Positions 52,816-64,000 of a stretch of 64,000 nucleotides of DNA are shown piece after piece. The stretch's first letter is position 1. Each line of letters starts with the position of its first letter. The notes beneath the pieces are model-generated. The model had not been told where the DNA came from and made no database searches. It worked only from the letters and a program-made list of their open reading frames with translations. A program made the position numbers and the translations under genes. The DNA is from Synechococcus sp. MW101C3. Its GTDB lineage: Bacteria; Cyanobacteriota; Cyanobacteriia; PCC-6307; Cyanobiaceae. The stretch lies in the NCBI RefSeq assembly GCF_002252635.1, contig NZ_NQKX01000006.1, forward strand, positions 62,001 through 126,000, in the 5' to 3' direction.

Positions 52816-54923
52816 TCAAGCCACCCGAAAACGTCGCAGCAAGGAGGAATTTACGATCACCGACAGCGAACTCAGGGCCATGGCCGCACCGGCGATCATC
52901 GGATTGAGCCAACCGAAGGCGGCGATCGGGATGCCGATCCCGTTATAGATAAATGCCCAGAACAGGTTCTGGCGGATCTTGCGCATCGTCGCCCGCGACA
53001 GTCCGATGGCCGTCACCACCTGCCGCACATCGTTGCCGATCAGGATGATGTCGCCAGCTTCTTTGGCCACATCCGAACCGGAGCCGATGGCGATGCCGAC
53101 ATCGGCAGTGGCCAGGGCCGGGGCGTCATTGACGCCATCCCCCACCATCGCCACCTTCTGCCCCGTGAGCTGCAGCGACTTGATCGTTCCAGCCTTCTCG
53201 GCGGGCCGCACTTCGGCGATCACCTCGCTGATGCCCAGCTGCGCGGCAATGGCCTCCGCGGTGGTGCGGGAATCGCCGCTCAGCAGGATCACCCGCACGC
53301 CATGGCGACGCAGCTGGGCCACAGCCTGCTCGGCCTCAGGCCTGACCGTATCGGCCACGGCCAGCAGACCGAGAAGGCGCGTCGCCCGGCCCAGCAGCAT
53401 CGACGTGCGTCCACCGAGCTCAAGGTCGCCCAGTTGTTGCTGCAGGGCTTCCGGCAGGTCGCCGATGAAGCGAGCGGCCAGGTGCCGGTTCCCCAGCCAG
53501 ACCGGCTCTCCCCCCTGCATGGCGGTGAGGCCTTCGCCGACCCGGGCCTCGAAGTGGTCGATCGGCAGCAGATCGACGCCGTGCGTTGCCACCGCGCGCC
53601 GATGGCCCCGGCCAAGGGATGCTCCGAGCCATGCTCCAGTGACCCTGCCAGTTGCAGCACGTCCCGCTCCGAACTGCCCGGCAGGGCGATCAGATCCGTG
53701 AGGATCGGCCGGCCCTGCGTGAGCGTGCCCGTCTTGTCGAAGACCACGGTGGTGAGCTGCTCGGCCCGCTCCAGCACGGCGCCGCTGCGGATCAGGATGC
53801 CCTGCTCGGCGGCCTTGCCCACTCCCACCATCAGCGCCGCCGGGGTGGCGATGCCGAGGGCACAGGGGCAGGAGATCACCAGCACGGCAATGAAGGCCAG
53901 CAGTCCGCTGCTGAACTGGCCGGCCAGTGTCCAGATCACGAATGCCGCGACGGCGATCAACACCACGGCAGGCACGAACCAGCCGGTGACCTGATCTGCC
54001 AGGCGCTGCACGCTGGCCGTGCTGGCCTGAGCCTCTTCCACCAGGTGCACGATCTGGGCCAGGGCGGTGGCGGATCCCACCCGGGTGGCACGAAAACGCA
54101 GCACCCCCCGGCCATTCACGGTGCCACCGATCAGCTCGGCGCCCACGGACTTGGCCACCGGCAGGGATTCACCGGTGAGCAACGACTCATCCACCGAGCT
54201 GCTGCCTGCGGTCACGACCCCATCGGCGGGAATCTTCTCGCCCGGGCGCACCAGCACCTGCTCATCGATGGCGACGGTGTCGGCAGGAACGGTCAGCTCC
54301 ATGCCGTCCCGGATCACCGTGGCGGTGGCGGGCTGGAGATCGAGCAGCTTCCGCACCGCAGCCGAGGAGCGTTGCTTGATGCTTTCCTCCATGAACTTGC
54401 CCAGCAGCACGAAGGCAATCACCACCGCCGATACTTCGAAATAGACGTCGCGATCACTCACACCGACCGGCAGCCAGGTGGGCACGAACACCACCACCAC
54501 GCTGTAGAAGTAGGCAACAGAGGTGCCGAGGGCGATCAGCACGTCCATGTTGAGGGCGCGGCGCTTCAGGGCCGCCCAGGCGCCGGCATAGAACGACCAG
54601 CCGCCGATGAATTGCACCGGGGTGGCGAGCACGAACAGCCACCTCCCCCAGCTCATCCAGGGCAGAGCCGGCAACGGCACCCACGCCATCAAACTGATGC
54701 CTGCCGCCAGAGCAAGGAACGCCCCGGCCCGCAACAACGCCAGCGCCAACACCCCGCCGATCACCAAGCCGACGCGGCGACGCAGGACGCGCAATTCGCG
54801 GTCGGGATTGCGGAACGTCTGCAGACAGCTCTGGCTGCAGAAGTAGTAGCTGCGGCCATTTCTCTGCGTCGAAAGAGCTGTGGCCTTCGGTACCACCATC
54901 CCGCAGATCGGATCTTTGGCCAT
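52816..54923 (-). pseudogene. Copper-translocating P1B-type ATPase with YHS head, frameshifted
   Basis: The protein begins [23 protein letters not shown] with a YHS/TRASH metal-binding domain (DPICGM and [11 protein letters not shown]) instead of the usual HMA. Eight membrane helices follow, and the ion motif [18 protein letters not shown] and phosphorylation motif DKTGTLTQG are intact, as is [14 protein letters not shown]. At 53593-53600 the frame shifts by one base in a GC-rich tract, and the remainder ([15 protein letters not shown], then [43 protein letters not shown]) continues in another frame. Both halves are otherwise complete. It is either a recent pseudogene or a sequencing error. 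Start chosen at the internal ATG; a longer one begins at 55025. Confidence 0.88.
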
Positions 54924-55298
54924 TTCACCCGCTTCACCACCGATCGCGGGCAGGTGGCGGTTGTCTTGGTTGTGGTGCGGCCCGGGCGGATCGCTGGGTT
55001 GTGGCCTGAGCGTTGGCGAGTTCATCCTGGCCGCTTCAGATCCGTGGGGATGGCTATGGGTGGTCTAGGCAGGATGTCGCGCAACGACCAACCCCGGCAT
55101 CGTTATGGCGGTGCGAAAAACTCAGCCGTTGCATAGCCACCTGCAGCGGATGTGCAGCAGCAGGATCAGGTGATTCCGCCCTCAATCGCAGCAGGGCTTG
55201 AGGCCCAACGGGTGTGGCCGCCCTGGAGCTGGCAGGCGTGATGGCGTCGCGCCGCTTTCAGCTGACTGCCAGCCTGGGCACCGCTTGGATCCGGTCGC
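54924..55298. other. Intergenic region of about 375 bases
   Basis: Between the copper ATPase and P450 genes, which run divergently. No supported gene or strong structure was seen. The frame for an N-terminal extension of the ATPase covers the first 100 bases. Confidence 0.4.
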
Positions 55299-56684
55299 TT
55301 GCTCCTCGATTCCGCCACCCTTCAGCCCCTGCCGTGCACGCCAGCCGTGAGCGGCGTGCTCGAAACCATCGCCTTTTTCCGTGATCCCGATTTCGCCCGT
55401 AAGCGCTTCGAGCGCTACGGGGATGTGTACGAAACCAGCCTGCTGGGACAGTGCACCGTGTTCATCCGCGGCGACCAGGCGATCAGCGATCTGTTCGCCC
55501 AGGGTGACGCGGTCCAGGGCTGGTGGCCGGACAGTGTGCGGGAGCTGCTGGGGCCGTTGTCGCTGGCCAATCGCAATGGTGCGGATCACAAGGCCCGCCG
55601 GCGGGTGGTGGGGCAGCTGTTCGCTGCCGCTGCCCTGAAGCGCTACAGCCCGGCGATCGTGGCGCAGGTGGAGGTGCTCCACCAGGACCTGCTGGGTGCC
55701 CAAGCGCCGCTGGCCCTGGTGCCGCAGCTGCGGCGCTTCGCCTTCAGCGTGATCGCCAGCACCGTGCTGGGGCTCGATGCGGTCGATCGCGAGGCCCTGT
55801 TCGTGGATTTCGAGATCTGGTGCCAGGGCCTCTTCTCCCTGCCGTTCGCCCTGCCCGGCAGCCCGTTCGCCCGCGCCCGTCAGGCCCGCAGGCGCCTGTT
55901 GCAACGCCTGGGCGCCGTGCTTCAGAGCGCCCAGGCCGCCGCCGCTCCCGGAGCCCCCCTCAGCGCCGGCGGTCTCGATCTGCTGGCTGGAGGCCTTGAT
56001 GAAGCCGGCCTCCCCCTCGCCGACGACGATGTGGCAGAGCAGTTGCTGCTGCTGCTGTTCGCCGGCTACGAGACCACCGCCTCCGCGCTCAGCTGCCTGC
56101 TGCTCACCCTGCTGCAGCATCCCGCTGAGCTGGCCTGGCTGCGGGAGGAACTCGACGGCTTGCCCTGGCCACCGGCCGAAGGCGAGGCCGTGAACGCCTA
56201 CGACGCCGTGCGGGCGCCGCGGCTGGAGGCGGTGGTGAAGGAGGTGATGCGGCTGACACCGCCGGTGGGTGGCTTCTTTCGCCGCACCCGGGAGCCCATC
56301 GCCCTGGCGGGTGTGCGGGTGCCGGCGGATCGGGTGGTGCAGGTGAGCATCAGCGCCAGTCAGCGCCACGGCGCTGACCCTGACGACCTGGCAACCTTTC
56401 GGCCCCAGCGGTATCTGGAAGGGGCGGAACCGGTGACCCTGCTTCCCTTCGGCGGCGGTGAACGGGTGTGCCTGGGCAAGGCGCTGGCGGAACTGGAGAT
56501 CCGGCTGCTGGCGGTGGGGCTGCTCAAGCAGCTGAGCCTTGCGCTGGAGCCCGATCAGGACCTCACACTCGTGGTGATCCCCAGCCCCACCCCGAAGCAG
56601 GGCCTGCGGGTGCGCGCCAGCCGCCGGGGAGCGACAGGCCAAACCATGGCGAGGCCGTCATCCACTGCGGACGCGCCGTCCTGA
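55299..56684 (+). CDS. Cytochrome P450
   Basis: 461 aa from a TTG start, so without an N-terminal membrane anchor. I-helix LLLLLFAGYETTASALSC (the AGxxT oxygen-activation motif, near residue 255), ExxR in VVKEVMRLTPPVGGFFRR, and heme ligand Cys391 in LPFGGGERVCLGKALAELE. The class resembles CYP120/CYP110-type soluble cyanobacterial P450s, which act on retinoids, carotenoids or fatty acids; the substrate is not known. It stands 311 bases before hli, on the same strand, and a decayed partial copy lies at 60973-61215. Confidence 0.93.
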   Translation: MLLDSATLQPLPCTPAVSGVLETIAFFRDPDFARKRFERYGDVYETSLLGQCTVFIRGDQAISDLFAQGDAVQGWWPDSVRELLGPLSLANRNGADHKARRRVVGQLFAAAALKRYSPAIVAQVEVLHQDLLGAQAPLALVPQLRRFAFSVIASTVLGLDAVDREALFVDFEIWCQGLFSLPFALPGSPFARARQARRRLLQRLGAVLQSAQAAAAPGAPLSAGGLDLLAGGLDEAGLPLADDDVAEQLLLLLFAGYETTASALSCLLLTLLQHPAELAWLREELDGLPWPPAEGEAVNAYDAVRAPRLEAVVKEVMRLTPPVGGFFRRTREPIALAGVRVPADRVVQVSISASQRHGADPDDLATFRPQRYLEGAEPVTLLPFGGGERVCLGKALAELEIRLLAVGLLKQLSLALEPDQDLTLVVIPSPTPKQGLRVRASRRGATGQTMARPSSTADAPS

Positions 56685-56995
56685 GCGGCAACTCCCGTCT
56701 GAATGGGGCCGTTGCAGAGCAGGTGGGCGGAGAAAGTGGAGGAGGAAGGCGGAAGGGGTGAGCGCCGCAGGCTCTCGGCGGGCTGGGCACCCGCACTGGT
56801 TCCGCAAGGTCGCCCGGGTGCAACGAACCTGGCAGAGCACCTGCAGGCCCCATGCGGAGCAACCAGCAGCGCCCTGGAACCACAACGCGGCGCATTGGCG
56901 GTACAACCTGCAAGGCCCCATCGCCGCCCAGAAGCGACATCTGTTCAAAATCCGAAACAGTCTGTTACAGTTCTCTCATCCCAAGCGAGAGCCCC
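56685..56995. other. Intergenic region between P450 and hli
   Basis: 311 bases without a gene. It holds a CTGTT/AACAG inverted repeat and the HLR1-like site described separately close to the hli start, and G/A-rich sequence near the P450 end. Confidence 0.45.
56954..56969 (+). promoter_or_regulatory. HLR1-like element (RpaB binding) upstream of hli
   Basis: GAAACA-GTCT-GTTACA: two direct hexamers with a 4-base spacer, matching the HLR1 layout (G/T)TTACA-N4-(G/T)TTACA. The second half is exact and the first differs in two bases. It lies 26 bases before the hli ATG. RpaB is the regulator that controls hli genes in cyanobacteria; it is not encoded in the window. Confidence 0.55.
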
Positions 56996-57265
56996 ATGGC
57001 CCAAGCCACCGCCACCGCCCCCAGCGCCCTTGACTGCGCCACCATTCGCGGCGCCACCGTCACCACCGAAGACGGCGGCCGCCTCAATGCCTTCGCCACC
57101 GAGCCCCGCATGGAAGTGGTGAGCGCCGAGAGCGGCTGGGGCTTCCATGAGCGCGCCGAGAAGCTCAACGGCCGTATGGCCATGCTCGGCTTCATCGCCC
57201 TGCTCGCCACTGAATTCGCCCTCGGCGGTGAGGCCTTCACCCGCGGCCTGCTCGGCATCGGCTGA
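56996..57265 (+). CDS. hli: High-light-inducible protein (Hli/Scp, one-helix CAB-like)
   Basis: 89 aa. The CAB-family signature in its membrane helix is [40 protein letters not shown], with ExxNGRxAM for chlorophyll and arginine ligation. The N-terminal 40 residues are soluble ([17 protein letters not shown]). Such one-helix proteins sit in the thylakoid membrane and protect against excess light by binding chlorophyll and carotenoid. A 60-aa gene follows 44 bases downstream. Confidence 0.95.
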
Positions 57266-57309
57266 ACCCATTGCCCCGATCAGCTCCTCCCCCTCCAACA
57301 GGCATCGCC

Positions 57310-57492
57310 ATGAGCCAGTCCCTTTCGGTCAGCAGAGAGTTCTTCGTGGAAGCCCACTCCCGCGCCATCGACAACTGCACGGAGTTGGAAGACCTGCGCA
57401 AGGTGTCCAAAACGCTCCTGAGGGCCTGGCAGATCCAGGCCATGTTCAGCGAGCAGTACGGCGCCCAGGCGCTCGGCATCAAGCGGCCCTGA
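57310..57492 (+). CDS. Small helical protein linked to hli, 60 aa
   Basis: 60 aa, predicted to be all helical: SLSVSREFFVEAHSRAIDN then TELEDLRKVSKTLLRAWQIQAMFSEQYGAQALGIKRP. No signal or membrane segment. The length and heptad-like pattern recall small phycobilisome-related helical proteins such as NblA, but no motif supports that. It lies 44 bases after hli and before a strong terminator, so it is likely co-transcribed. A decayed copy, at the same distance from a remnant of hli, lies at 61345-61520. Confidence 0.7.
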   Translation: MSQSLSVSREFFVEAHSRAIDNCTELEDLRKVSKTLLRAWQIQAMFSEQYGAQALGIKRP

Positions 57493-57512
57493 GCGTCCCA
57501 CGTCACTGGGCT

Positions 57513-57546
57513 GGCACTCCTGTACCAAACGCTGTACAGGAGTGCC
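57513..57546 (+). terminator. Strong intrinsic-type terminator after the hli/60-aa pair
   Basis: Perfect 13-bp stem GGCACTCCTGTAC / GTACAGGAGTGCC with an 8-base loop (CAAACGCT), followed by TTTG. It begins 20 bases after the 60-aa gene stop, closing the hli transcript. Confidence 0.8.
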
Positions 57547-57708
57547 TTTGCCGTAGATCTCTCTGGCAAGGCGCTCCCTGGAACTGCAGAGGAGATGCTG
57601 ACCCTTAAGGATCGACTTGCCTGCCTGTCCATTGCCGAACGAAGGACCTGCACCTTCGCCCTCTGGGTCTTGGTGGCTCGGGTCCAACCCGCCACCTAGC
57701 CAAGCTGG

Positions 57709-58239
57709 TCAGGGGCGCGTTGCGCCTGGAGTATCCAGCTGGTCGGTGTCTGCCCAGGCCCCCAGGCCTCGAAAGCGGTTGGCAAGGAAGGCGAGTAGGC
57801 CGGGCGGCTGGGTCAGCTCCTGCTCCGCCGCCCATTCGGCTTCGAGAATCTCTCGGTCGTCGATCTTCAGACCCTCAACCAGCCGCCGGTACGCCAACTT
57901 CTCATCGGTATTGATGCTCGAGGTGTCTTCCGGTCGCCGGCTGATGCGAAGCACCTGATACGCAAGCTTCACGGCCAGCTGCCGGTCATCGGCCGTGGTG
58001 ATCCTTGGCAGAAGCGTCTCGAGTGCCTCCGGCCCCAGCGCCTCGGCCGCAAGGGCATCCACAGCGGTGGAAGCGGCTTCTGGGCCGGCATCTGCCGCTG
58101 CCGTGCGCTCCGCCAGCTTCTTGAGCAGCCTTCGCTCCTGCTCAGACATCTCCCCATCGGACCAGGCGACACAGCAGAGGATGCGTAGCAGATCGAGGTC
58201 GCCGGCCGGCTGTTCTGCGCTGAGATCCGGCATGGTCAT
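57709..58239 (-). CDS. TerB-family helical protein
   Basis: About 176 aa from the ATG giving MTMPDLSAEQPAGDLDLLRILCC; the frame extends upstream, but that extension looks unnatural. The pattern DLDLLRILCCVAWSDGEMSEQERRLLKKLAERT is the opening of the TerB (tellurite resistance B-like) helical domain, with the acidic DGEMSEQE segment that binds metal in TerB proteins. LAVKLAYQVLRISRR and INTDEKLAYRRLVEGLKIDDREI follow. The function in cyanobacteria is unknown. No other Ter gene is adjacent. Confidence 0.75.
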   Translation of the reverse strand: MTMPDLSAEQPAGDLDLLRILCCVAWSDGEMSEQERRLLKKLAERTAAADAGPEAASTAVDALAAEALGPEALETLLPRITTADDRQLAVKLAYQVLRISRRPEDTSSINTDEKLAYRRLVEGLKIDDREILEAEWAAEQELTQPPGLLAFLANRFRGLGAWADTDQLDTPGATRP

Positions 58240-58484
58240 GGCGCCCAGGATGAGTATCGATCCCATTGTGAGGCTCCGGCGCCCACTGCGGCCTACCGCT
58301 AACCCGTTACCCAAAGCCACGCCCAGCGCGGCGGCAAGCGCAGTCTCCGGGGAATCGGGAGAAGCGTCAGTGATGTCCAAGGCCTTTGGTCCAGGGCTCA
58401 TGCCCGAGCGGGTCCTTCAGTGAGCTGCCGGATCTTGAACCTGAAGATCAATCAGCGGCACGCCTCCATACGGATTGACCCGTC

Positions 58485-58809
58485 GTGACTTCTTGCACCT
58501 TCTCCCAAGTGAATCAGGGCGTGCTGCTGACGATCCTTGATCCCACCGGGAACGGCCGCACCATCCATCATGTCGAGCGAAGCGGCTTAACACGGCAGCC
58601 TGATGCGTTCGTGGCCCTGCCCGATGCTGAGATGGCGCAAGGGATGTTTTGCCTGGATGAGTGTCAGCCCCAAGGTTTCTTCACAGCCTCTTCATCATCT
58701 CTTCGAAGCCGCACGTCGCCGCTTGCTGCTACTGCGCACCGCAAGTGCGTATCCTGCCCATGTTCCTGAAGATTGTCTTCGGGCCTTTCCCGGTGAGATT
58801 CCCGCATAA
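58485..58809 (+). pseudogene. Possible frameshifted orphan gene
   Basis: Frame one (58485-58690) reads MTSCTFSQVNQGVLLTILDPTG, then HVERSGLTRQPDAFVALPDAEMAQGMFCLDE. At about 58660-58680 a second frame takes over with SVSPKVSSQPLHHLFEAARRR, then LRTASAYPAHVPEDCLRAFPGEIPA and its stop, 6 bases before the next gene. Both halves look protein-like and the second has clean coding sequence. The joined product would be about 105 aa. A sequencing error is as likely as true decay. Family not recognised. Confidence 0.35.
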
Positions 58810-58814
58810 GTGGC

Positions 58815-59396
58815 ATGCGCAACCTTCGTGGCTTGATTCGATTGACAGCTGTATTGATGATGACTGTGCCGATCGCCTCGCATGCGGCAGGTGGGCCGCC
58901 AGCTTCTCCGTTGACGATGAAGTTTGCTGATCAGACTTATCTCCTTCGATGGTCGTCAAAACATCAGCATGAGTTCACTCCATCTGATCAGACTGACCTC
59001 AGTCGCTGGACGGACATGATAACCATCAACACGTACCCAGATGTCAGCGATGGGGATGGGCTGGCCAATGTTGCCAATAGGGTGCTCGATAACTACAAGC
59101 AGAACAAGGCCGTGGTGGTTCGCACTTTATCGATTCCCCGCACTGCCGTGAAGCCCGCAGAACATCTGATCGTCGTTCTTTTCCCTGTTCGTAACTTTAT
59201 CGAGGCTGTCTTTGCGCGATTCAGGCTGGCAGATGGTCGTGGCACTGCGGTGATCTACAGCCATCGCATCTATGGGCAAAAAGTGGGAGATACCACGGCG
59301 GCCTGGATGAAGGCCAATGGAGCCACCATTGAGCGTCGCTTGATGGCTCTCCATGAGGTTCCCTCCCACCGCATCCTGGAGCCGGCCAGCCGGTGA
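58815..59396 (+). CDS. Exported hypothetical protein, 193 aa
   Basis: ATG start with a signal peptide (MRNLRGLIRLTAVLMMTVPIASHAAG). The mature domain has LTMKFADQTYLLRWSSKHQHEFTPSDQTDLSRWTDMITINTYPDVSDGDGLANVANRVLDNYKQN, then HLIVVLFPVRNFIEAVFARFRLADGRGTAVIYSHRIYG. The family is not named here, but the length and strand pattern are protein-like. Its base composition is lower in GC than the core genes. The stop overlaps the next gene by 4 bases, so the two are coupled. Confidence 0.7.
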   Translation: MRNLRGLIRLTAVLMMTVPIASHAAGGPPASPLTMKFADQTYLLRWSSKHQHEFTPSDQTDLSRWTDMITINTYPDVSDGDGLANVANRVLDNYKQNKAVVVRTLSIPRTAVKPAEHLIVVLFPVRNFIEAVFARFRLADGRGTAVIYSHRIYGQKVGDTTAAWMKANGATIERRLMALHEVPSHRILEPASR

Positions 59397-59689
59397 CCGG
59401 GAGCCTCTCTGCACCATGGTGGGTGGAGATCAGCGACAACGGGCGTAGCGGGGTTGTCGTCTACCACGAAGGGATCAACACCATCTCCTGTTACTGGGAG
59501 TTCTGCGGTGGCGACACCGTTGCATCCATCTTGATCGGCGACATCAGTGAATGGAACACCTGCTATCCATGGGCGGTCGGGCGGAGAATGGACGTTCTCA
59601 TGCGCATCGCCGCAGAGGTGGTGCGCCAGAAGGCTCCCACCTGCAGCGCCTTGATTGAGGATCAGCTGGGCTTCATCAGCATCAAGTAG
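59393..59689 (+). CDS. Hypothetical protein, 98 aa, coupled to the exported protein
   Basis: GTG start that overlaps the stop of the previous gene by 4 bases. Soluble, beta-rich sequence: WWVEISDNGRSGVVVYHEGINTISCYWEFCGGDTVASILIGDISEW, then a helix RRMDVLMRIAAEVVRQK. I do not recognise the family. Translational coupling to the exported protein gene suggests a shared role. Confidence 0.6.
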   Translation: MTGSLSAPWWVEISDNGRSGVVVYHEGINTISCYWEFCGGDTVASILIGDISEWNTCYPWAVGRRMDVLMRIAAEVVRQKAPTCSALIEDQLGFISIK

Positions 59690-60334
59690 CTCCCGGAGTG
59701 CAATGCAAGGCCTTGGTTGACGTCTGACCCGATGTCACCGCCGTGCGACACCGGCCAGGGAGAACGGCATGTTCAGACACATCGGCAGGCTCGTGTTGCG
59801 TCGATCGTCATGACGCGAATCAGGTCCCCCCTGATCAGTGCAGAACACTGTTGGGACGCGCACAATTGATCACCGCCTGCGCAGCATGGTGACGACGTCT
59901 TTCCCTGGCATCGGCTTTGCCGATGAAGTGAATGAACTGATGCATGCGGGCGCTTTAGCATTGTCAGCGAGTGGCGATCCGCTTGATGAGTGAGCACGAC
60001 GCTGTGGATGGCACAGTGCTGGGAGTGGCTTCTGGCCCATCTGAGCCGAACTGCCCAAGTGTGCGTGCCCGCCGGGTGGCTTCCCTTCCCAACAGCGACA
60101 TGATCACCTCCTGGCATGAACAACATGGTGGCGACTCAAAGCAGCCCCGATGCCATCTCCGGCGATGTGCTCGCCTGCAGCCCTTGCTAACAGTTCGATT
60201 CAGTAGCGACGGCTCTCCCTGGCTCAAGCAAAGAACATCCCGCCATCTTCGGCTTGGATGATGTGGCGCATCCAGATCCCATACCAATAACTGACCTTTG
60301 TGATCGGCCTCGGATTTTGACGGAAGAGTAGAGC
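59690..60334. other. Region of about 645 bases with a possible small gene
   Basis: A plus-strand frame starting at GTG 59838 and ending at 59993 encodes a 51-residue peptide (TRTIDHRLRSMVTTSFPG then IGFADEVNELMHAGALALSASGDPLDE), possibly real from the ATG at 59886. The rest shows no supported gene. Longer frames on the minus strand look like chance openings. Confidence 0.35.
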
Positions 60335-60775
60335 TTAACAATACGATGACCCAACGAAGCAATAGCGGAGATAGCCATATGCAAGAGAAGCTGCCATGAA
60401 GATGTAAATGCCGCTCATCGTCCAGGCAAAGAATCTGGGTTTCATTCTCATCACCCACCGGTATCCAAATGTGCTTGCAGTCAGTCCGCCAATTAGCCCT
60501 CCCAAGGCAATGAAAGCCAGGCTTACCAGTGCTGACAATGATCCCAGCCCTCCCCCCGCTCCCCATGACTCCAGGGAGCCAGGGGTGCAAATCAGTGGGC
60601 TGCTGCAAGCCAGGATGCAGCCTAAAAAAGCGCCCCTTATGCTCACTGCGAATGTGCTTGGAATTGATCGCCGAAGTGCCCCAGTGACAACACCAATAGC
60701 AACACCCAAAATCGCTCCCAGGACACCACTGAGAAGCGTATGAGTGAATAGCCGCGACAAAACAAAGGCAAGCAT
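60335..60775 (-). CDS. Small membrane protein, 146 aa
   Basis: I start at the ATG giving MLAFVLSRLFTHTLLSGVLGAILGVAIGVVTGALRR. Four hydrophobic segments in all; the others are SIRGAFLGCILACSSPLI, LSALVSLAFIALGGLIGGLTAS and FFAWTMSGIYIFMAASLAYGYLRY. The composition is lower in GC than the core of the window, so it may be a transferred gene. Family not recognised. Confidence 0.6.
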   Translation of the reverse strand: MLAFVLSRLFTHTLLSGVLGAILGVAIGVVTGALRRSIPSTFAVSIRGAFLGCILACSSPLICTPGSLESWGAGGGLGSLSALVSLAFIALGGLIGGLTASTFGYRWVMRMKPRFFAWTMSGIYIFMAASLAYGYLRYCFVGSSYC

Positions 60776-60972
60776 TTCATTGCCCCCAGGACTTGCGAAG
60801 AGAATGGATGCTTGGAAATGAAAAATTAGCTGCAGCCGCAATCATCTCTGCCATGGAACCCAGTCGCACTTGTGACAATCGACATTTCTCGTTTCTGCCG
60901 AGATCTGCATCATGTCGCAACCAGCCCTCCGCCTGAAGCCAAAAAGTCGTGTCCTCAAATGATAATGGCTTC

Positions 60973-61608
60973 AGGCGCCTGACCTCGCCGGTGGGGGGCT
61001 TTCGCCGCACCCTGGAGCCCATTGCCTTGGAGCCCTTTGGCGGCAGTGAACGTGTGTGCGTGGGCAAGGCGCAGGTGGAGCTGGCACTCCGGCTGCTGGG
61101 ATGCCCTGTGCAGACTGCTGAGCTTTGCGTTGGAGCCTGATCAAGACCCCATGCTCGTGGTTGTCCCAAGCCCCTCCCCGAAGCATGGGCTGCTGCTGCA
61201 CCAAGCGGCTGCGAGCCTCAGCATTGATCGGTACCTGTTGTTCTGTTCGGCGGTGAGGCCTTCATCCGCGGCCTGCTGGGCATCAGTTGACTTCACTACC
61301 GAGAGTTGTTCATCGCACTCCAGCAGGTATTCCGGTTGGGCCATCCCTTTCGGTCAGCAGAGAGTTCTTTTTCGAATCCCCTCCTGCGCGATTGACAGCC
61401 GCACGTAGCTTGAGGACCTCCGCAACGTATCCAAATCGCTGCCCACCATGGCTTGTCAGATTCAGGTCATGTTCAGCGGCCAGTGCTGCGCTCGGGTCTC
61501 GCAATCAAGCGCCCCTAAGCGCCCCGAACAATGTGGTGCGTTCTTGTGCCAGCTCTGTGGTTGAGTGCCTTCGCTGCAGGCATCCCCGAAAAGGTGCTCC
61601 TTGGGTCT
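60973..61608 (+). pseudogene. Decayed duplicate of the P450-hli-60-aa module
   Basis: Three remnants occur in the order and orientation of the intact genes at 55299-57492. (1) 60973-61215 is the P450 C-terminus, RLTSPVGGF-RRTLEPIALEPFGGSERVCVGKAQVE, missing about 44 codons before the heme loop and frameshifted after LLG. (2) 61246-61290 is the C-terminal end of hli, GGEAFIRGLLGIS and stop. (3) 61345-61520 matches the 60-aa gene, starting SLSVSREFFFES and then breaking frame. The distance from the hli stop to the shared SLSVSREFF region is 55 bases in both copies. Homology continues to about 61608. Confidence 0.85.
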
Positions 61609-62734
61609 GTATGGGAGGTGTGGCTTGATGAGATCTGACTCATTCGGGTTGCACCAGGCGGATAGCTCTACTTCAGGCCTTCGATGGTGGTTCGAGTTCA
61701 ACTTCGATTCGAGTTGAGATGATCTTCCTGGAAATGCACAAGATGAGTAAGCCCCTGAGTTGGTTGGTCTCCAGGCTTTGTGTCAAACAGCTGAGTTTGC
61801 CGCGCGAAACCAGATAAGGATTGGGAGAGAGGGCTGTCCAGTTCTTGGGGAGATCCAGTTAGGCGTTGAGGCTCACAACAAGCTCAAGTGGCTGATGAGG
61901 ACGTTGACCAGCGCCCTCCGCAGTGGTCCGATCGTCATTGCCAAGCGTTCTGCAACAGTACTCTGATTCCAGCACGGCAGCTGAAGTTATACGCTGACTA
62001 CTTCACCTGGGCAGGCGTGGCCTTAGGCCTTCTCTTGTTTGTTTCCGTCAGGAGGAAGGTGTTGATCTTGGTCGGCTCTGCGGGAGGTGAATTGTGGGCC
62101 TGGATCTACGAACATTGTTTACCGTCGGGCCACGGTGGATTGGTGCGGCCGAATTGCCAACGGATCGTCCTGCTACTACCAGCGGATGGCGAGCGACCAG
62201 GTCTCATCGACCGAGTTGACATGACCATCAAGCTCTCGGTGGAGTTTGCCGAATGGATTCATCAAGTGATCACGCCGTAGCTGTTGCTTCTGCTCATCGG
62301 CATGAATGGACTGATCGGTTCAAGACCTCAGCGCGATGGGCTGGATCACAGTGGGAGCTGGTGGCGATCACCACAGGGGGCGCAGGGCGCGGCGGCCGCC
62401 GGCTAGTCGTTGGTGCCGTGCGCCTTCGGGTGCCCAGCCCCCCTGGCATGCCAGGTCTGTGCTCCAACCCTGGCAGCGACGGATGAGCAGGGCGATGCAG
62501 TTCACTTCGGCGGGATGATGGAGAGCGTGGTTGATGATGCTGCCATGCTGTTGCGTACGGGCAGCAAGACTTCGACAGTCCATTGGGGCCCGGCCTCGAT
62601 CGTCTGCTACTGATCGCCGTAGGCGCGAGGTCAAGTAGCTGCAAGCTCAAGAGTTCACTCGAGGTGGACCCAGTTGAGGCGCGTCCTAGAACCCTTTGGA
62701 TGAGGATGCTGGTAACCACGGATGGAGCATCGTC
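61609..62734. other. Low-GC region of about 1.1 kb with one weak reading frame
   Basis: A plus-strand frame across 61888-62280 contains ADYFTWAGVALGLLLFVSVRRKVLILV, then NCQRIVLLLPADGERPGLIDRVDMTIKLSVEFAEWIHQVI, which look protein-like in parts. A start and family cannot be assigned; it could be an orphan or a remnant. The remaining sequence shows no supported gene. Confidence 0.35.
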
Positions 62735-63376
62735 GTGACACCGTCCCGCTGGTTCCGCGCATGGTTCAGTCATGCCTGGAGGGCCTGCTTGTTTCAGGCT
62801 GCCAGGCGAGAGGCTGCCTTTCTGAAGGGAAACTGTTGCCCTGCTGCCGCCGGTATTGCTTTCGCTCTGTGTCTGGTGCTTTCACCAGGTGAGGCTCCAG
62901 CCCGGCCCGACAAGGTCGTGGCGCTGCAGGGTCTCTGCTTCCGTTCCCCACGCGCCCTCTCTAGCCCCTTATCGGTGGGTCTCGATGCTGTGTCTGTGGT
63001 GCATCCGCCGGCAGCCGACGCGCAGAGCGAGCGCTTCAGCCTCACCGCTGTTCGCTTTCCGCTTGACGTCACCGATGCCAAGGCCGGCATGACCCCGGCC
63101 GAACTGCGTGCCTACGTGGCAACGGTGTTCCTCGCCGGCCAGGCCCATCAGGGAAGGCCGATTCAGCGCCACTTGCTGGAGCGCAGTGTTGAAGGGCTGG
63201 CCTTCTCCACCTCGATTCCCGCTCCTTCCTTCGCCGAGGTCTACGCCCTGCGGCTTCAGAATCGAGAAACGGTGGTGCTGGGCTTTAAGTTCCGCAGCGG
63301 CTGGCGCAATGAGGCTGGGAACCTGATCACTGCGATCGCTGGGAGCCTGCGGGAGTGCAACGTCAACCAGCCCTGA
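62735..63376 (+). CDS. Exported or membrane-anchored hypothetical protein, about 213 aa
   Basis: GTG start; a TTG at 62696 is the alternative. An N-terminal hydrophobic segment (CCPAAAGIAFALCLVLSPGEAPARP) is preceded by a basic-aromatic tract. The mature domain contains FSLTAVRFPLDVTDAKAGMTPAELRAYVATVFLAGQAHQGRPIQRHLLERSVEGLAFSTSIPAPSFAEVYALRL and ends FKFRSGWRNEAGNLITAIAGSLRECNVNQP. It looks like a periplasmic protein. Family not recognised. A convergent secreted-protein gene follows. Confidence 0.6.
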   Translation: MTPSRWFRAWFSHAWRACLFQAARREAAFLKGNCCPAAAGIAFALCLVLSPGEAPARPDKVVALQGLCFRSPRALSSPLSVGLDAVSVVHPPAADAQSERFSLTAVRFPLDVTDAKAGMTPAELRAYVATVFLAGQAHQGRPIQRHLLERSVEGLAFSTSIPAPSFAEVYALRLQNRETVVLGFKFRSGWRNEAGNLITAIAGSLRECNVNQP

Positions 63377-63383
63377 AGCTGAC

Positions 63384-63788
63384 TCAGCGCGTCTCACACC
63401 GCACCCGAAGCACTTCACCCTCCACCCCCGTGCTGACCAGCCGCAGGCGGTCTCCGCCCGGATCCAGGCTCAGCAGGCCGAGGTACAGCCAGGTACTGCC
63501 TTCCCCGGAGAGCGCGATGATCACGCCGATCCGATCGGGCCCCTCTCCCGCCACCGCTAGCACCGGCCCACTGCTCTCGTAGAAGCTGAGGCGATCGGCC
63601 TCGATGCGAAGCCACGACTCGTCGCTCTGCGTGGCAGTGCAGTGCCGCGCCTCTGCCATCCAGAGGCCCCGGAAGACTGCGGGGATGGCCCCGAGCCGCT
63701 CGGCGGCTTGCGCCGGAGGAGCGAGGGTGAGCCCCGCAGCCAGTCCGGCGATGAGTCCATTGAGAAGGTGCTGGGCGGTGGTCGTCAC
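63384..63788 (-). CDS. Exported hypothetical protein, 134 aa
   Basis: ATG start with signal peptide (LLNGLIAGLAAGLTLAPPAQAAE). The mature part is a compact beta domain: FRGLWMAEARHCTATQSDESWLRIEADRLSFYESSGPVLAVAGEGPDRIGVIIALSGEGSTWLYLGLLSLDPGGDRLRLVS. It has two cysteines likely to form a disulfide. Family not recognised. It ends 8 bases from the end of the convergent exported protein gene. Confidence 0.7.
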   Translation of the reverse strand: MTTTAQHLLNGLIAGLAAGLTLAPPAQAAERLGAIPAVFRGLWMAEARHCTATQSDESWLRIEADRLSFYESSGPVLAVAGEGPDRIGVIIALSGEGSTWLYLGLLSLDPGGDRLRLVSTGVEGEVLRVRCETR

Positions 63789-64000
63789 GGCTGTAGCCGG
63801 TGATCGAGCTTCTCAACAATGGCTGGATCACACCGCTCCAATGGCTGGTGCTGCCAATCTCCACATCAAGGCTGTGGAGGGTGCCTCGACACAAGCCGGG
63901 TGCTCCGCAACCGATGCATCTCTGAGATCTCCGTGACTGGTTTGGTTGAGGCCGCAGGAGCTTCACGCCCAGGCACTTGAACGGATGCTCTGGGTGCGGC

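Follow-up and report, generated by a model that had tools for sequence, protein, structure and literature searches.

Positions 60973-61525 of the 64,000-nt stretch of Synechococcus sp. MW101C3 DNA analysed here (the window, to which coordinates refer unless another contig or locus is named) most probably form a pseudogene cluster, the neutrally decaying rest of a second contiguous copy of three genes that lie intact further upstream. Judging from the sequence, we put the probability of this reading at about 0.88. The intact genes of this freshwater picocyanobacterium, all on the forward strand, encode a cytochrome P450 of 461 aa (55299-56684), an hli-like protein of 89 aa (56996-57265) and a protein of 60 aa (57310-57492). 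As a marker within one picocyanobacterial genus, the remnant dates a duplication or a transfer, and it provides a neutral yardstick next to constrained copies of the same genes.

Homology and lesions of the remnant

A repeat search and local alignment placed 60973-61525 against the intact module in three collinear blocks on the same strand, each 76-83% identical to the intact genes, and the order and orientation described in the earlier note are thereby confirmed. The local score of 204 between remnant and intact module compares with 35 for the best of 300 dinucleotide shuffles and a maximum of 36 among 94 other 636-nt stretches of the window, which rules out chance similarity; the alignment that the earlier note had suggested as a check thus gave matches far above both controls. 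Searched against the whole genome, each block was significant singly (E 1e-45, 2e-33 and 3e-9). Separate origins of the three matches are ruled out by their collinearity and by the 60-aa remnant, which scores 158 with the linked gene but 33 with a paralogue on contig C11. The hli tail alone cannot discriminate, the linked copy and a paralogue on contig C1 both being about 91% identical to it over 44 nt; a 60-aa gene follows hli in the linked copy only and not in the C1 paralogue. A blastn search of the neighbourhood found no duplicated part besides the remnant, so a larger duplication taking in the adjacent ATPase or hid genes was rejected, and short scattered tblastx matches around the module were taken as GC-rich noise.

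The first stretch of the P450 remnant (60973-61032) corresponds to about codons 317-337, with one codon deleted, and aligns to 56247-56309 at 83% identity. The second (61033-61198) runs from the haem-loop region (FGGSERVCVG) to near the C-terminus and aligns to 56445-56612 at 79%. These are followed by a 48-nt scar without reliable alignment (61199-61246), whose flanks match 56612 and 57222. The last block, 61247-61525 aligned to 57222-57499, holds the end of hli, namely its last 14 codons (GGEAFIRGLLGIS) and stop (61247-61290 against 57222-57265, with 4 mismatches), and a remnant of the entire 60-aa gene with its terminal TAA (61336-61525 against 57311-57499, score 153). All of these parts lie on the forward strand. 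The earlier note had correctly named the P450 C-terminus and the hli end, but had seen only the start of the 60-aa gene, which is represented at full length, and had carried the remnant on to 61608; the last 83 nt, 61526-61608, resemble the intact module at chance level and the remnant ends at about 61525.

Damage is extensive. The P450 sequence before about codon 317, some 316 codons on the 5' side, has no counterpart. The internal P450 deletion reported earlier as 44 codons is real and in frame, measures 135 nt (45 codons), and stands beside the single-codon deletion mentioned above; indels at about 61099-61111 then produce a net change of frame. Between P450 and hli some 608 nt of the intact module have shrunk to the 48-nt scar, with loss of the P450 end, the intergenic region, the hli upstream element and the first 75 hli codons, so the claim of conserved spacing fails here and holds for hli and the 60-aa gene, which are still about 45 nt apart. 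The 60-aa remnant has lost its start codon and single bases near 61343, 61380 and 61493, has a net insertion of about 3 bases near 61441, and carries an in-frame TAG (61406-61408) in place of Glu25. Three-frame translation showed disrupted reading frames in all three remnant genes, and the frameshifts noted earlier are borne out by frame-changing indels in the P450 and 60-aa parts. Collinearity, broken frames and the tree described below uphold the view of one collapsed duplicate of a contiguous P450-hli-60-aa segment.

The intact genes provide the reference for these comparisons. The P450 scores 143.2 bits against PF00067 (curated cut-off 22.8), and its nearest solved structure is CYP120A1 of Synechocystis (2VE3, E 1.6e-71), to which it aligns over residues 6-439; CYP120A1 is a retinoic acid hydroxylase (PMC7014017). 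The hli product appears to be a Psb34-like paralogue: it matches NF033486 over residues 23-75 at 36-37 bits, below the curated cut-off of 45, and Chloroa_b-bind at 20.3 bits, below the cut-off of 22.3, while a separate gene on contig C4 of the same genome scores above the NF033486 cut-off. Psb34 (ssl1498) is a PSII-associated assembly protein (PMC9458560). A putative upstream element of hli (56934-56995, forward strand) has a core, CTGTTACAGTTCTCTC, common to most hli loci, in which CTGTTAC is invariant in all nine loci from several genera, the C1 paralogue included; a consensus scan between P450 and hli found no promoter or terminator, and it is therefore conservation that points to this element. 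The hli gene with its 62 nt of upstream sequence (56934-57265) is 91% identical to the C1 copy (394770-395105 of that contig), and the similarity stops at the stop codon. The 60-aa protein, which has a family alignment of 24 members, is predicted by AlphaFold2 to fold as a two-helix hairpin (mean pLDDT 87.6, helices 7-22 and 26-55). Its family is uncharacterised; 15 of 60 searched genomes hold relatives, and weaker paralogues occur as well. Size and helical hairpin had suggested NblA, an identity we rejected: the genome has no PF04485 match, one of 24 relatives reached E 0.068, and no NblA appeared among the fold matches.

Neutral decay, age and origin of the second copy

Substitutions specific to the remnant are spread evenly over codon positions 1/2/3 (13/13/10 in P450 and 9/10/14 in the 60-aa gene), whereas differences between the intact copies of the window's genome (G000) and its congener G002 are concentrated at third positions (2/1/14 and 2/1/13), and the pooled spectra differ (Fisher p = 1.4e-5). 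An even spectrum of this kind indicates neutral decay, and by this measure the remnant has evolved as non-coding DNA over most of its branch. Its GC content is 62%, compared with 68% in the matching intact blocks; strong AT-biased decay was rejected as per-site GC-to-AT and AT-to-GC rates are alike (13% and 14%). The reductive decay seen by the earlier note is sound as local pseudogenisation, but nothing points to reduction of the genome as a whole, which at 3.03 Mb is among the larger ones of its family.

In trees the remnant is sister to the genus' intact copies, beside rather than inside them, with bootstrap support for the clade of 98 in a large set and 91 in a small one, and 95 when the hli-60-aa part was added with other taxa. 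Pairing the remnant with the G000 copy alone is disfavoured by the AU test (p = 0.035). At 16 of the sites where G000 differs from both known congeners, G001 and G002, the G000-derived state is missing from the remnant; at 4 the remnant has it too. Its position beside the intact copies suggests that the second copy is probably older than the split of the window's species from its two congeners. This timing is not firm, since the remnant's long branch (0.25, compared with 0.08 for the intact copy of G000) may pull it towards the base and the SH and KH tests reject no alternative. We propose that the lineage probably gained a second copy, by duplication or by entry from outside, before that split, and that this copy was then released from selection. 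It would have lost about 316 P450 codons from the 5' side and two larger internal stretches, one of 135 nt within P450 and one of about 608 nt reaching from the end of P450 across most of hli. Small indels, loss of a start codon and gain of a nonsense codon would have been added, and the copy should now yield no P450, hli or 60-aa product.

Each congener carries the module once, and the complete second module that the earlier note had proposed looking for in related strains was not found in any congener. In both, about 220 bp separate the module from genes for a methyltransferase, an FAD-oxidoreductase and a type III PKS, the gene set of hierridin-like hid clusters (PMC8086630). Similar hidABC-like genes lie just past the right end of the window (L012:11034-14120, about 64.0-67.1 kb). 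The congeners thus join 57497 to 64102 across some 220 bp, and in the window's genome a block of about 6.6 kb (57.5-64.1 kb) is interposed. Its in-window part (57500-64000), which holds the remnant and unrelated small genes, is absent at this site in both congeners. Family searches of the block recognised no integrase or transposase, and it contains no tRNA, RNA family or known defence gene. Within it, 58815-59689 holds two adjacent genes of unknown family, a pair kept in some other genera (L174, L175, L184) and absent from the congeners. On the other side of the module the copper-type P-ATPase neighbour (52816-55025) is split between overlapping open frames at 52816-53592 and 53289-55025, as a frameshift would cause, and the same gene in G002 lacks about 1.3 kb.

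The block raises the possibility that the remnant is no in-lineage duplicate, but arrived, its decay complete or under way, with lower-GC DNA from a related picocyanobacterium. We regard this as a possible though distinctly less likely origin. Consistent with it, the block has no substantial DNA match in the congeners, GC in its middle is mostly 54-60% compared with 66-72% around it, and among about 250 genomes sampled in the family, 20 others, no congener among them, hold relatives of the gene at 58815-59396. In G093, G060 and G204 this relative is found some 7-9 kb upstream of a P450, which is decayed in G060 and G204. Against it, the trees put the remnant with the copies of its own genus (bootstrap 91-98) rather than with those from G093 or other genera, and the family searches recognised neither integrase nor transposase in the block, which has no tRNA either. 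Of the two origins we infer duplication, although the tree would be equally compatible with an old duplication within the lineage that the congeners have since lost and with a transfer from a close or unsampled sister lineage.

Linkage of the three genes in relatives

From the survival of the linked order the earlier note had concluded that P450, hli and the 60-aa gene probably function as a unit, a conclusion that the relatives do not bear out and that we now consider unlikely. The order P450-hli-60-aa does recur at seven of the fetched loci, which span several genera and have P450-hli gaps of 86-1387 nt (one additional locus shows P450-hli at a contig end), and in G170, which also has a complete module, a second hli-60-aa pair follows a P450 remnant. 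However, among 30 P450 loci with enough sequence to be informative, hli and the 60-aa gene are missing at 23, each of which has at least 3 kb of downstream sequence. The hli gene has its own conserved upstream element. Each gene also occurs or decays without the others: the C1 paralogue of hli has no 60-aa neighbour, in L111 a broken 60-aa gene stands beside an intact hli, and on contig 31 of G170 hli and the 60-aa gene are intact downstream of a ruined P450 fragment. Type III PKS genes are about as frequent neighbours of the P450, lying within 10 kb of it in 7 of 41 fetched loci, distant genera included. Linkage is thus loose, short of what would mark the three genes as one operon. Nor does the duplicate add evidence of joint function, because copying one contiguous segment preserves order whatever the genes do; the remnant itself shows the three genes to be separable in loss, and it cautions against reading 'duplicated together' as 'works together'.

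Residual function of the remnant, as a short peptide or as a regulatory or antisense RNA acting on the intact genes, is very improbable: a 63-codon open frame (60949-61140) retains the haem-loop motif and the identity to the intact genes could permit pairing, but there is no third-position bias and no Rfam match, and the remnant is absent from the congeners.

Comparison with other decayed copies

Second P450 copies of the same family are found elsewhere in various states, and in other genera, too, some have decayed. Both P450 genes of G146 are intact, as are both of G105, whereas in G204 the gene on contig 60 is intact and that on contig 41 has an internal deletion. G060 has a shredded gene on contig 34, and G170 has the fragment on contig 31. 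One metagenome-assembled genome (LE-02apr19-128; L131, L138) carries two different P450 genes of the family, both at about 80% identity to the query; they may be real paralogues or reflect mixed strains.

It is tempting, if speculative, to suppose that hli and the 60-aa gene, together with an upstream element of their own, make up a small cassette which has been copied repeatedly behind P450 genes in freshwater picocyanobacteria, where second P450s are repeatedly destroyed while the cassette is perhaps kept. Extra P450s would then be selected against, and extra stress-type gene pairs tolerated or favoured. We hold this to be rather doubtful, but the uncharacterised hli-60-aa pair, loosely associated with P450, is the broader lead from this work.

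The decayed genes of G204, G060 and G170 resemble the remnant in belonging to the same family and in being fragmented, and differ from it in their breakpoints and loci, G170 moreover keeping its hli and 60-aa genes intact. With an ordinary bacterial pseudogene cluster the remnant shares truncation, internal deletions, frameshifts, a nonsense codon, changes spread evenly over codon positions and an intact copy nearby. It does not differ from such a cluster in kind, and the order of its three genes is still legible after about 20-25% divergence.
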